From Candidatus Saccharimonadota bacterium (GTDB lineage Bacteria; Patescibacteriota; Saccharimonadia; Saccharimonadales; Saccharimonadaceae): 51,704 nucleotides of DNA. Numbering within the stretch: the first letter of the stretch is position 1; each line of letters begins with the position of its first letter. The notes under the pieces are model-generated. The model was not told the DNA's origin. It worked only from the letters and a program-made list of their open reading frames with translations, and did not search any database. Of this stretch, positions 1 through 5,205 are shown one piece after another. The DNA is taken from contig JAUMXR010000003.1 in assembly GCA_030528995.1 (NCBI GenBank), forward strand, positions 1-51,704. Direction: 5' to 3'. A program made the position numbers and the translations under genes.

Positions 1-1060
1 ATTTACCATCAGCGAGTTTAGCCACAGCATAGGTTTCGCCGTCACGCTGGTCGGTAAGAGCAGTGACAGCTCCAGATGCCATAGTAGAGCAACCCGTCCA
101 GCCTTGAAGATTACCAGCAGATTTAATCCAGCTAGCATAGAGGGATAGGCCATTGTTGGTACCTGTATATTGTCCTGCGGTGAAGGTGATATATTCCTGT
201 GGGCCAAGGTAACCTGTTGTGTCAGAGTAGTCGTAGGTGGTGCTCCAACCTGCGAAGCCGTAACCGGCGCGGCTGAAGTTGGATGCGAGGAGAGTGGCAG
301 AAGTGGCGGAGGCTGAGATGGATTGGCAGCCCATAGTGCCTTCTACATTGCCGCCATTGGGATAGTAACGGATACAGCCTGCTTCGGTGGTTTGGGGCTG
401 CAAAGGCACTTCATTAGCTGGGTGAACGAGGGTGTATTTGACTTGGCCAGAGTAGGTGCCGGCAGGTTGGGTTTTAGATATGAAGGCAGCGTAGGTAGTA
501 GTGAGTTTAACTCCACCAGTATTTGCGGTCATATCCGTAGCAGAGTTCTTATGGGCAGCTTTAGTGTATTCTGCTGGTACATTATGGTAATCACCAAAGC
601 CATTATCAAGTGAGAAAGCATTGGTCCCTGTGGTATCACCAGAATCCTGAGTGATAGCTAGTTTCATCGCCCAGTTAGATGTGTTCCCATTTTCAGCTGT
701 TCCAGTCGCAATATCATAAGTATTCCCAAGTGTAGAGTTTGTTAATACATTCTTGCCAAATTCATCATCAGTATATCCAATAGTATATATAGCAAATCCC
801 TCATTATCATTACAGAAAGCATGAAGTGTAGTAGTACCAATATTTGGTGTATATGTATTATTGTTTATATTTGCAGTATGACTATTCATGCCAGTACCGG
901 ACATAGTACAAGATGTTGGGACTGTAATATTAACTTGATCTACTACGTCGGTATTATCAGCATTTGCTTTATTGGATATTAAAAAGGCTCCAGTGAGGAT
1001 GGTCAGCCCAACTATTCCAACGGGAGCAATGAGCGTTTTATTATAATTACGACTTGTCAT
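1..1060 (-). CDS. Secreted InlB-repeat/FISUMP surface protein, 3' end cut by the window
   Basis: This is the first 353 codons of a secreted protein; the C-terminus lies beyond base 1. The ATG at 1058-1060 is followed by a signal peptide ending near residue 33 (..SNKANA-D), a beta-rich N-terminal region with sparse cysteines, an InlB/Listeria-Bacteroides-type repeat (GYGFAGWSTTYDYSD) and the beginning of a FISUMP domain (LTDQRDGETYAVAKLADGK). It is a paralogue of the next two genes and closest to the one at 1549-3369 (shared NEVPLQPQTTEAGCIRYYPNGG), but its first 20 residues differ from theirs. No Shine-Dalgarno sequence is present; an extended -10 box sits 6 nt before the ATG. Role is inferred as adhesion or host contact; no enzymatic motif is visible. 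Confidence 0.8.
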   Translation of the reverse strand, partial: MTSRNYNKTLIAPVGIVGLTILTGAFLISNKANADNTDVVDQVNITVPTSCTMSGTGMNSHTANINNNTYTPNIGTTTLHAFCNDNEGFAIYTIGYTDDEFGKNVLTNSTLGNTYDIATGTAENGNTSNWAMKLAITQDSGDTTGTNAFSLDNGFGDYHNVPAEYTKAAHKNSATDMTANTGGVKLTTTYAAFISKTQPAGTYSGQVKYTLVHPANEVPLQPQTTEAGCIRYYPNGGNVEGTMGCQSISASATSATLLASNFSRAGYGFAGWSTTYDYSDTTGYLGPQEYITFTAGQYTGTNNGLSLYASWIKSAGNLQGWTGCSTMASGAVTALTDQRDGETYAVAKLADGK

Positions 1061-1066
1061 AATAAT

Positions 1067-1074
1067 ATTATAAC
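1067..1074 (-). promoter_or_regulatory. Extended -10 promoter giving a leaderless start
   Basis: On the minus strand TGT-TATAAT ends 6 nt before the ATG at 1060, which places the start codon at or next to +1. No good -35 box is visible. Confidence 0.6.
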
Positions 1075-1151
1075 ACAAGAATTATAAATCATAGCCATAT
1101 ATTCATTTAGAACTGACAATACTTCTGTTATTTTATCAGAACACACCCTTC

Positions 1152-1308: not shown

Positions 1309-1470
1309 TTAATTAAAATTCGGTTTACATAGTTTTAGCCACCCCAATATAAATGAAACTCTTAAAACCGTTCACTAATTCCCCCAGGGAGTGCAAAAAT
1401 ACAAAAAATACACACCCCGTGTGCATTTTCTTAATTTGCCGTGTAAAAACAATTCCGCCGCAGAGCAGCG

Positions 1471-1521
1471 GCCCTGCTTAAGTTATTTTGCTACGCAAAA
1501 TCCTTAAGCTATTCCTAGGGC
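1471..1521. repeat. Long inverted repeat just downstream of the 1549-3369 gene
   Basis: Nested arms GCCCT/AGGGC, GCTTAAG (1476-1482)/CTTAAGC (1503-1509) and ATTTTGC (1485-1491)/GCAAAAT (1495-1501) close on a 3-nt loop. It lies 28 bp beyond the stop codon. It lacks a clear U tract on the minus strand, so it may be a cruciform or a recombination-associated hairpin rather than a plain terminator. Confidence 0.6.
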
Positions 1522-1548: not shown

Positions 1549-3369
1549 CTACACGCTGGACACGACGCAACGAACTGCCCCCCCGTAATACTTGTAGTCC
1601 GTGCCCGGGCCGACGAAGGACGAACCCAGGTCCAGGCTGTAGGCGTGGTAGCTAGAGAATGCCGTAGACGACCAGAAGAGGCCGCCCGTGCCGCGAATGT
1701 ACACAGAACCGCTGTCGACGTAGCCGGGATAAACGGTATTGACTGGGTATTTGCGCCAGCGGAGAGAAGCTTCTGCGGAGAATTGGTCTGTTCCAGTGCC
1801 TCCCATTTTACGGTCTAAGTAGGAGAAGCCTGGGACTTTGTTGGCTGGGTCGGAGGCGCCTTGGTCTATGTTGCCAGTGCTGGTACTGCCTAGTGGGAGC
1901 TTCCAACCAGTAGGGCAGATGGAGGTGGTGTTGTGATCACCGCTGGTATAGTCAGTGGTATCGGCGATGGCAGCAGTCCAAGTGTAGTAGTTGCCGTAGC
2001 TGTACATACTAGCGTTTGAGGTGGTGTTGGTGGCATCATTTGTGGTTGGGTTTTGTGGGCGGTCAGAAGCTGTGGTTGGAGTGTTGATATTATTATATCT
2101 TGGCATACGGTAGGCGGTGTTACTGGTACCTATGTTGATAGTATCATTAGCTCCATCGTTGCTATATAGTGAGTTGGCTGAATATGTGTCACTAAACTTG
2201 TCTGGAGTTTCTCGGTCAGCGAGACCAGCGAATTGACCACCGTAACCTTGGGAGAGGGTGCCGTCAGAGTTGTGTTCTGCAGTGCTTTCTAGGCGGAGGT
2301 TTTCTATCATCCAACACTGTCCATCCGCCAGTTTGGCGATGGCGTAGGTTTCACCGTCACGCTGGTCGGTGAGAGCAGTAACGATACCACTTTGTAAGCT
2401 AGGGCATCCAGTCCAACCTTGGAGATTACCAGCTGATTTAATCCAGTGAGCGTAGAGGGATAGACCATTGTTGCTGCCGGTGTATTGTCCTGCGGTGAAG
2501 GCGATGTCTTCCTGTGGGCCAAGGAAACCAGTGGAATCAGAATAGTCGTAGGTGGTACTCCAGCCGGCGAAGCCGTAACCTTCACGGCTGAAGTTTGATG
2601 CGAGGAGAGTGGCAGAAGTGGCAGAGGTTGAGATGCTTTGACATCCCATGGTGCCTACTACATTGCCACCATTTGGATAATAGCGGATACAACCGGCTTC
2701 AGTGGTTTGGGGCTGCAAAGGCACTTCGTTAGCTGGGTGGACCAGTGTGTATTTGACTCGTCCGTGATAAGAACCAGCTGGCTGAGTGGGGGAAGTGAAA
2801 ATGGCATAGGTCGAGGTGAGCTTCACCCCACCAGTGACTGGCGTCATGTCGGTAGAGACATTCTTGTGGGCGACTTTGGTAAATGTGCTTGGTACCGTGC
2901 GGTAGTCGCCAAAACCATTATCCAACGTAAAGACGTTATCGCCGGTCACATCGCCGCTATCCTGGGTGAGATTTAGTTTCATCGCCCAGTTACTAGTGGC
3001 GCCACCCGTGGCAGTACCAGTTACAATATCGTAAGTAGCACCAAGCGAAGCATCGGTGAGAACATTTTTACCATCTTCATCATCGGTGAAACCAATAGCA
3101 TAGATGGCAAAGCCGGCATTATCATTACAAAAAGCGCTAATAGTAGAAGTGCCGATATCTGGGATATAAACACTGCCACCGGTGCTGGCGTTGTGCGTTT
3201 CGGTGCCGGTAGCACCTAAAGTGCAGGTAGGTAGAACGTCAAGAATTACAGTTTCACTTGAATCGGCAGCTTGAACCGTCGTTGATGACAAGACCGCGCC
3301 CGTCAGGATTGTCAAGGTCGCAGTTAAAGTTGATATTATTAATGTATTTGGTACCACACTTTTACTCAT
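1549..3369 (-). CDS. Secreted InlB-repeat/FISUMP surface protein with unusual 3' end
   Basis: A 606-aa exported protein. Residues 1-35 form a signal peptide (MSKSVVPNTLIISTLTATLT.., cleavage near VQAA-D). Residues 40-225 are a beta-rich domain with paired cysteines, 262-310 an InlB/Listeria-Bacteroides repeat, and 335-606 a FISUMP domain (GQCWMIENLRLE, GWKLPLG, GLFWSST, GGAVRCV). No membrane anchor follows. Likely a secreted binding protein; ligand unknown. The last 61 codons (1552-1734) are GC-rich, have no Asn codon and end mostly in C, unlike the rest of the gene and unlike its neighbour paralogue (see findings). A run of seven C (1578-1584) lies in this segment. The start is leaderless: TATATA ends 6 nt before the ATG. 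Confidence 0.85.
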   Translation of the reverse strand: MSKSVVPNTLIISTLTATLTILTGAVLSSTTVQAADSSETVILDVLPTCTLGATGTETHNASTGGSVYIPDIGTSTISAFCNDNAGFAIYAIGFTDDEDGKNVLTDASLGATYDIVTGTATGGATSNWAMKLNLTQDSGDVTGDNVFTLDNGFGDYRTVPSTFTKVAHKNVSTDMTPVTGGVKLTSTYAIFTSPTQPAGSYHGRVKYTLVHPANEVPLQPQTTEAGCIRYYPNGGNVVGTMGCQSISTSATSATLLASNFSREGYGFAGWSTTYDYSDSTGFLGPQEDIAFTAGQYTGSNNGLSLYAHWIKSAGNLQGWTGCPSLQSGIVTALTDQRDGETYAIAKLADGQCWMIENLRLESTAEHNSDGTLSQGYGGQFAGLADRETPDKFSDTYSANSLYSNDGANDTINIGTSNTAYRMPRYNNINTPTTASDRPQNPTTNDATNTTSNASMYSYGNYYTWTAAIADTTDYTSGDHNTTSICPTGWKLPLGSTSTGNIDQGASDPANKVPGFSYLDRKMGGTGTDQFSAEASLRWRKYPVNTVYPGYVDSGSVYIRGTGGLFWSSTAFSSYHAYSLDLGSSFVGPGTDYKYYGGAVRCVVSSV

Positions 3370-3417: not shown

Positions 3418-5205
3418 TTAATTAGAAGACAACATACATCGGATGGAGCGACCGACATACTTATTGCTGGTACCAGTACCCGGATAGATATAGGAACTAC
3501 CAAAATTCAGATTGCCTGCCCAGTTATTAGAATAAACCGTAGAAGTCCAAAATCCACCGAGAGTGCCTCTATCTCCAGCGATATATCCAGAGAAAACAAA
3601 GTTGTTTGGATACTTACGCCAGTTAAGAAGAGAGGCCCCAGTAGCCGATTGGTTTGCTCCTGTCCCGCCCAATTTGCGGTCCAGGTAGGAGAAACTCCCT
3701 ACCCTGTTTGCCGGGTCACTTGCGCCTTGTTCTATATTGCCAGTACTAGTTTCACCTAGTGGAAGTCGCCAACCACTTGGACATATCGAGGTGGAACCAT
3801 GATCGCCAGTATTGTATTGATTTGTGTCTGCTATAGCGGCAGACCAAGTATAATAGTTGCCATAGCTATAGATATATTGACTATTTGTGGTGTCAGTAGC
3901 CCTAGCAGAAGTGTTCTGATTATTGTAGCGTGGGAAGCGAAAGGCAGCATTTGTGGAGCCAATGTTTATGGTATTGTTGGAGCCATCTATGCTATATAAA
4001 CTGTTGGCGGTGGTGTAGGACGCAGTTGCGGCCCATGGTTCTTCCGGGTCAGCTAGGCCAGAGAAATTACCGTATTCAGCAGATGTAGCATATCCCTGAG
4101 CAAGGCTACCATCCGTGTTACCGATTGCAGTATTGTCTAGCCTGAGATTCTCAATCATCCAACAATTACCATCAGCCAGTTTAGCTACGGCGTAGGTATT
4201 ATTGTCGCGTTGGTCGGTAAGGGCAGTAACTGCACCCTCAGCTAGTGTGCTACAACCGGTCCAGCCCTGGATACTGCCAGCTGATGGGACCCAATAGGCG
4301 TAGAGGGAGAGACCATTGGTTGTAGTATCTGCTGGGGTAGTGATGGTCTCATTTGGACCATAAAATCCGGTTGGGTCAGAATAATCAAAAGTTGTGCTCC
4401 AACCAGCGAAGCCATAACCTTGACGGCTAAAGTTAGAAGGATACAATGTAACGGAGGCATTGTCGCCCGCCGTTTGGTCTGCTATAGTACCGACGGCTAT
4501 GCCACTATTGGAATGGTATACAATCTTGCCCGGCTTTGCAGGTTGTGGTTGTAATGGGACCTCATTGCTCGGTTGAACTAATGTGTATTTAACTTTTCCA
4601 ATGTAGGTGCCGGCAGGCTGAGTAGCAGAAGCGAAGACAGCATAAGTGGAAGTAAGTTTGACCCCACCAGTCGTTGGTGTCATATCGGTGGAAGTATTCT
4701 TGTGGGCGACCTTAGTATAGACGCTTGGAACTGAACTATAACTGCCAAAGCCATTATCTAGTGTGAAAGCATTCGTGCCGGCAGTATCACCACTGTCTTG
4801 GGTGAGGTTAAGTTTCATTGCCCAGTTACTAGTAGCCCCTTCCGTGGCAGTACCCGTGACAATATCATAAGAGCTGCCAAGGGATGAGTCAGTGAGGACG
4901 GTTTTGCCATATTCATCATCCGTATAACCGATAGCATAGATAGAAAAACCGCTATTATCATTACAATATGCATGAAGAGTAGTACTACCAATATCTGGGA
5001 TATAGTCGTTGCCTTGCGTGGTGGCAGTATGGGATTCGGTGCCAGAACCGCTCAAAGTACAAGAAGCGAGAATGGTTAAGTTGATATCGTCTATCGCATT
5101 GTCAGCGCGGACTGTGGCAGATGATAAAGCGGCACCGGCGAGAAGCGTGAGGGTCGCAGTTAAAGTTGATATTATTAATGTATTTGGTACCACACTTTTA
5201 CTCAT
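3418..5205 (-). CDS. Secreted InlB-repeat/FISUMP surface protein
   Basis: A 595-aa paralogue of the adjacent gene with the same plan: signal peptide (residues 1-34), beta-rich region with NWAMKLNLTQDSGD and GGVKLTSTYAVF motifs, InlB repeat at about 255-300, and a FISUMP domain from about 325 to the end (NCWMIENLRLD, GWRLPLG, GGFWTSTVYSNNW, RSIRCMLSSN). The C-terminal segment keeps Asn codons (SNNWAGNLNFG) where the neighbour has Ser, Tyr and Asp. It ends 48 bp before the next gene's start, and its first 18 codons plus promoter are almost identical to that gene's. Probable role: extracellular binding or adhesion. Expression should be leaderless. Confidence 0.85.
   Translation of the reverse strand: MSKSVVPNTLIISTLTATLTLLAGAALSSATVRADNAIDDINLTILASCTLSGSGTESHTATTQGNDYIPDIGSTTLHAYCNDNSGFSIYAIGYTDDEYGKTVLTDSSLGSSYDIVTGTATEGATSNWAMKLNLTQDSGDTAGTNAFTLDNGFGSYSSVPSVYTKVAHKNTSTDMTPTTGGVKLTSTYAVFASATQPAGTYIGKVKYTLVQPSNEVPLQPQPAKPGKIVYHSNSGIAVGTIADQTAGDNASVTLYPSNFSRQGYGFAGWSTTFDYSDPTGFYGPNETITTPADTTTNGLSLYAYWVPSAGSIQGWTGCSTLAEGAVTALTDQRDNNTYAVAKLADGNCWMIENLRLDNTAIGNTDGSLAQGYATSAEYGNFSGLADPEEPWAATASYTTANSLYSIDGSNNTINIGSTNAAFRFPRYNNQNTSARATDTTNSQYIYSYGNYYTWSAAIADTNQYNTGDHGSTSICPSGWRLPLGETSTGNIEQGASDPANRVGSFSYLDRKLGGTGANQSATGASLLNWRKYPNNFVFSGYIAGDRGTLGGFWTSTVYSNNWAGNLNFGSSYIYPGTGTSNKYVGRSIRCMLSSN

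Follow-up and report, generated by a model that had tools for sequence, protein, structure and literature searches.

Diversity-generating retroelements (DGRs) are known machinery by which selected bases of a gene are randomised. We asked whether such machinery has written the 3' end of the FISUMP gene at 1549-3369 of the window, that is, the whole stretch of 51,704 nucleotides analysed here (contig C48 of genome G000), as the original prediction had proposed from the letters of this stretch. Our comparisons make it very probable that the last ~60 codons of the gene are the variable region (VR) of a DGR target, as judged from the pattern of sequence differences. The features used below refer to the template repeat (TR) and VR of G042, a genome found among 174 congeners (one genome per species).

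2 to 1078, minus strand: third gene of FISUMP type, truncated where the contig begins, within a paralogue-conserved stretch; its 3' end lies off the contig
1445 to 1471, minus strand: second hairpin (1455-1471) followed by AATTGTTTTT, seen in the fold and conserved after the VRs of G042, G138 and C42
1476 to 1509, minus strand: post-VR hairpin with stems of 7 bp and 7 bp, a 1x2 interior loop and a 3-nt loop
1525 to 1566, minus strand: 3' end of the TR/VR homology, an IMH-like segment (..CTGTTCGTGTCGTTCCA) that crosses the stop codon and is shared with both the TR and the VR of G042 as far as GTTCCA
1549 to 3369, minus strand: probable DGR target gene, 606 aa, with an N-terminal hydrophobic segment and a C-terminal FISUMP domain
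1567 to 1731, minus strand: coding part of the probable VR aligned to the G042-type TR; 27/46 A sites and 13/119 non-A sites differ (p = 1e-9)
1578 to 1584, plus strand: run of seven C, the GGG GGG of a Gly-Gly in the 1549-3369 gene
3418 to 5205, minus strand: FISUMP paralogue with no VR features; template-Asn third bases changed at 10/16, no post-gene hairpin of the window-VR type

The gene tail and its G042 counterpart

The protein of 1549-3369 matched TIGR02145 (FISUMP) with 54.7 bits, above the NCBIfam cut-off of 41.65, and matches to PF09603 and, weakly, to PF09479 (Listeria-Bacteroides-type repeat) were both below cut-off. The AlphaFold2 model of the FISUMP domain was unusable (pLDDT 39.5); the domain is presumably a C-type-lectin-like binding domain. 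Recounting confirmed that the last 61 codons hold no Asn codon and 33 codons ending in C. The GC-rich gene end was also correctly described, with 61.7% GC in these codons against 42.1% at the end of the 3418-5205 paralogue; GC3 reached 78.7%, and a 180-base GC profile peaked at 60.6% over 1561-1740. As had been noted, the paralogue end does contain Asn codons (7 of its last 61), its C-ending codons numbering 15 and not about 14. In the direction of the gene, a hairpin (1476-1509) is indeed found after it, and the run of seven C that was placed after the gene lies instead inside the coding segment. The number of C-ending codons was set aside as evidence by itself, as it is not distinctive (38 are found in a different stretch of 61 codons within this gene); what distinguishes this tail is its pattern against a template.

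Such a template was present in G042. The VR of this genome and the window tail share 76% identity, and another copy, 0.7 kb from this VR, carries 18 AAC triplets and adjoins a reverse transcriptase (RT) gene, so that VR, TR and RT all lie within 2.2 kb. The VR of G042 differs from its own TR at 21/50 A and 0/121 non-A positions, and this is therefore a real DGR. By sequence, the G042 cassette is a third type, distinct from the two host cassettes described below, and its TR matches the window VR. The window carries A at 19, G at 14, T at 11 and C at 2 of the template A sites, and the 13 non-A differences from this TR are to be read as those of a between-species comparison.

As the A-site bias could partly reflect Asn at variable surface positions, we made a second test on the third base of the template Asn codons. 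Results showed that positions 1 and 2 of these codons are changed in 23/34 cases in the window and position 3 in 1/17 (p = 2e-5). In the ordinary paralogues C48b, C13 and C44, third-base changes reach 10/16, 15/18 and 11/18 (61-83%), together with 39-43% non-A mismatches; pooled, the paralogues give 36/52 against 1/17 for the window (p = 4e-6). Copying from AAC codons protects the largely synonymous third base, and amino-acid selection alone would not. The probable VR lies at the gene 3' end with the AAC codons of the template turned into NNC, as in known DGRs. Since the third-base test covers 17 codons, recent activity of the window VR is not proven by it.

These results bear directly on ordinary divergence, in which the tail would be a GC-rich, fast-evolving lectin end common to homologues, with no DGR involved. 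The abundance of FISUMP paralogues (about 30 FISUMP-type genes scattered over G000, 47 matches) and the richness in C-ending codons elsewhere in the gene (38/61) would fit this view; however, the A-site bias and the third-base test already contradict it, the paralogues C48b, C13 and C44 do not have the pattern, and the nearest matches of the window tail are precisely a DGR template and its VR, those of G042. We consider ordinary divergence highly improbable. Several of the FISUMP-type genes in this 0.87-Mb genome exceed 900 aa and have repeated domains (C9, C32, C53, C18).

The two DGR cassettes of the host genome

G000 belongs to the Saccharibacteria, near Nanosyncoccus, and its assembly comprises 55 contigs and 873 kb (93% complete). 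It contains two RT genes that are 82% identical (C23:28236-29387 and C49:8352-9500), each part of a cassette of RT, Avd-like accessory protein and TR (C23:28236-29647, L001; C49:8058-9500, L002). Both RTs have the IGNLTSQ and YVDD motifs; their best solved relative is the DGR RT of BPP-1 (8ub7, E 3.9e-24), and they also match phrog_1423. Named relatives of the host RT are Saccharibacteria, many from ruminant guts, the best being Candidatus Nanosyncoccus alces (65%). In both cassettes an A-rich repeat, its sense on the other strand from the RT, follows after about 120 nt, and a hairpin resembling a terminator separates it from the RT. Reading by eye, we noted two genes after the C49 TR, one PIN-domain-like and the other small and antitoxin-like (L002:3-640).

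The gene preceding each host RT encodes a protein with an Avd-like, four-helix C-terminal domain. The predicted structure of the C-terminal 125 aa (pLDDT 84) aligned to Avd (4dwl) with Foldseek probability 1.00 and TM 0.65/0.75, but with an E value of 0.35, and stood at Z 11.6 among helical bundles. Searched by sequence against solved structures, the accessory protein had no Avd match, and it is placed in the Avd group by predicted fold only. The N-terminal part of the C23 accessory protein is a helix-turn-helix domain.

We also compared each template with the VRs of G000. TR49 differs from the C49 VR at 25/62 A and 0/115 non-A positions (p = 9e-14), and TR23 from the C23 VR at 15/44 A and 0/73 non-A positions; TR23 against the VRs of C12 and C4 gave 22/44 and 21/44 at A with 3/73 and 2/73 at non-A. 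On these alignments both cassettes are DGRs of the working type, each with a perfect A-only target elsewhere in G000, and those targets are VRs of genes other than 1549-3369. Four VRs, that of C4 (L079), that of C43 (L054), L103 and L106, are A-biased and have no post-VR hairpin, their TR homology ending at or near the stop codon; such VRs could be one-way or dead targets. L106 (G138:C13:24224-24422) comes from a species with no detected RT, and its tail differs from the G042 TR at 23 A sites and one other site.

One of the two host cassettes could itself have written the window VR, as they share its genome and TR49 shows a modest A bias against it (p = 1e-4). However, the non-A mismatches to the window VR are 37/113 for TR49, which also has a 6-nt length difference, and true targets show 0-3; with 19/71 for TR23, both templates were rejected, and we give this origin hardly any credence. 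In the search of the genome that the original prediction had suggested, an RT and an A-rich template were both found in G000, and a near-copy of the window VR differing only at A was not.

The target site and the cognate template

Beyond GTTCCA the TR and VR of G042 diverge, and the window continues like the VR, not the TR, with GAGCCCTAGGAAT and then the hairpin at 1476-1509. As single-stranded DNA this hairpin folds at -11.1 kcal/mol (z -5.9). In a hand alignment of the four distinct sequences that follow the VRs of the window, C42, G042 and G085, all 14 of the 14 pairs were kept, 9 were compensated and none was broken. The second hairpin and its T run can be read as a transcription terminator. 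In BPP-1, homing depends on a hairpin directly behind the VR, for which the stem structure matters and the stem sequence does not (PMC3240598); the window resembles this system in having a VR at the gene 3' end followed by a hairpin of varying stem sequence and kept pairing (PMC3240598). The invariant 3' (IMH-like) segment and the hairpin at the window VR thus correspond, by sequence and predicted pairing, to the known DGR target signal. The conserved hairpin, together with the A-biased and NNC-preserving differences from the G042 TR, supports the prediction that the end of the 1549-3369 gene is a VR. An IMH 16-mer searched against IMG/VR gave 57 scattered matches, which we took as chance.

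DGR machinery in G000, the mark of copying from an AAC template in the window tail and the target signal are read directly from the sequences. In the mechanism that we propose, an RT would read an RNA copy of an A-rich TR and insert bases at random wherever the template has A. The resulting cDNA would then take the place of the tail of the 1549-3369 gene, with the invariant 3' segment and the hairpin past the stop codon serving as anchors. In this way about 17-19 codons (AAC to NNC) would be randomised in the C-type-lectin-like FISUMP domain of a protein that is secreted or at the surface. The binding of the domain would presumably change as a result, and the partners affected may be on host cells or on phages. 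The writer of the window VR would be a third cassette of the G042 type, unassembled or recently lost.

No cognate TR for the window VR was found in the G000 assembly, which is broken at these repeats: the G042 TR, TR49 and the window VR, used as queries, matched TR49 and TR23 and no third template, and no third RT was found in the assembly. Among the loci examined (part of those of the congeners and of the 75 named RT loci), no TR was closer than that of G042. The assembly breaks at DGR repeats: C23 ends within its own TR, contigs C30 and C34 each begin within VR genes, and the first base of the window already falls in a FISUMP gene. The missing TR is therefore most simply explained by a gap in the assembly; loss, or a template elsewhere, could also account for it. 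The two genes at the starts of C30 and C34 (L021 and L022, bases 1-222) are FISUMP VR genes of the same kind, with identical starts and differences mainly within the VR.

Loss would make the window tail a relic, written by a G042-type DGR that has since disappeared and now frozen and evolving normally; this is a sub-case of our explanation, with the same origin and a different activity. It would agree with the lack of a cognate TR and of a third RT in the G000 assembly, and with ten congeners, several of them 94-99% complete, that have window-like tails and no RT at E<=1. Against it, the IMH-like segment and the hairpin are intact, the third bases at template Asn codons are still kept (1/17 changed), and the assembly is 93% complete with its breaks in repeats (C23 in the TR; C30 and C34 in VR genes). 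We regard a relic as possible and somewhat unlikely. The conservation of window-like tails across species could mean that templates are shared, that tails were transferred or that loss was recent.

Cassette layout and likeness to known systems

RT and TR are on opposite strands in both host cassettes and in G042, that is, in the inverted arrangement. We also counted the layout in saccharibacterial cassettes with a findable Asn-rich TR (L143, L155, L156 and L168-L250 besides L001 and L002): in 27 of the 29 distinct cassettes the TR lies 38-186 nt 3' of the RT and is on the other strand. In the two exceptions, L184 and L219, RT and TR share a strand, the TR again being 3'. L225, labelled Clostridia and taken as misbinned (RT 57% identical), was counted; L192, labelled Nomurabacteria, gave no credible TR and was left out. 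TRs were called by Asn-codon density, TR/VR pairing having been checked for C49, C23 and G042 only. Outside the Saccharibacteria, 19/20 relatives have the usual layout, with the TR 5' of the RT on the same strand.

In DiGReF (2012), RT and TR on opposite strands define group 4, a rare type with three RTs (PMC3521204). These 'inverted' DGRs resemble the present ones in having the RT on one strand and the TR and target on the other (PMC3521204); in contrast to their rarity, here the arrangement is the usual one of a bacterial clade (27/29). We do not claim the layout as new, as later surveys of candidate-phyla DGRs may record it. A broader reading, which we put forward as speculative and on balance unlikely, is that the genus shares an inverted, convergent layout with the template as its own transcription unit behind a terminator, that the G042-type template circulates between species as VR tails on different FISUMP gene bodies, also in RT-less genomes, and that some VRs, including that of the window, were written in trans or acquired ready-made.

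The host cassettes are like that of BPP-1 (mtd/avd/TR/brt) in their RT family, Avd-like accessory domain and A-restricted TR/VR differences. Unlike the phage BPP-1, the present DGRs are cellular, their TR follows the RT and is encoded on the other strand, and the accessory protein has an N-terminal helix-turn-helix domain; the window hairpin has a GTA loop and an interior loop, in contrast to the GRNA tetraloop and plain 7-10 bp stem of the BPP-1 type. DGR-targeted Fib_succ_major proteins were reported from human microbiomes (PMC4159848), and in these, as in the window gene, FISUMP / Fib_succ_major is the diversified C-terminal domain; here, in contrast, the targets are saccharibacterial, and a single genome of 0.87 Mb holds dozens of paralogues. 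The Patescibacteria-restricted DGR clade 2 (PMC8144416) also consists of DGRs encoded by cells of the candidate phyla radiation, a likeness that does not imply clade membership of the present RTs.

With the window gene, a cell-surface protein family of host-dependent bacteria would join the DGR targets, and a reading of sequence alone can spot such a target with no template in view. RTs of this kind are present in 95/174 congeners; therefore, these epibionts may quite generally use randomised surface lectins to tune their attachment or to escape phage. Concrete questions on template expression and VR exchange arise from the inverted layout and from the VRs that lack a template.

Repeated motifs were also seen next to these genes. 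Copies of TTACACGGCAAAT in both orientations lie at 1149-1197 and 1434-1449 of the window, around the intergenic region, and a dispersed motif, TTTACACGGCAAAT, has only three exact copies in G000, all beside FISUMP genes.
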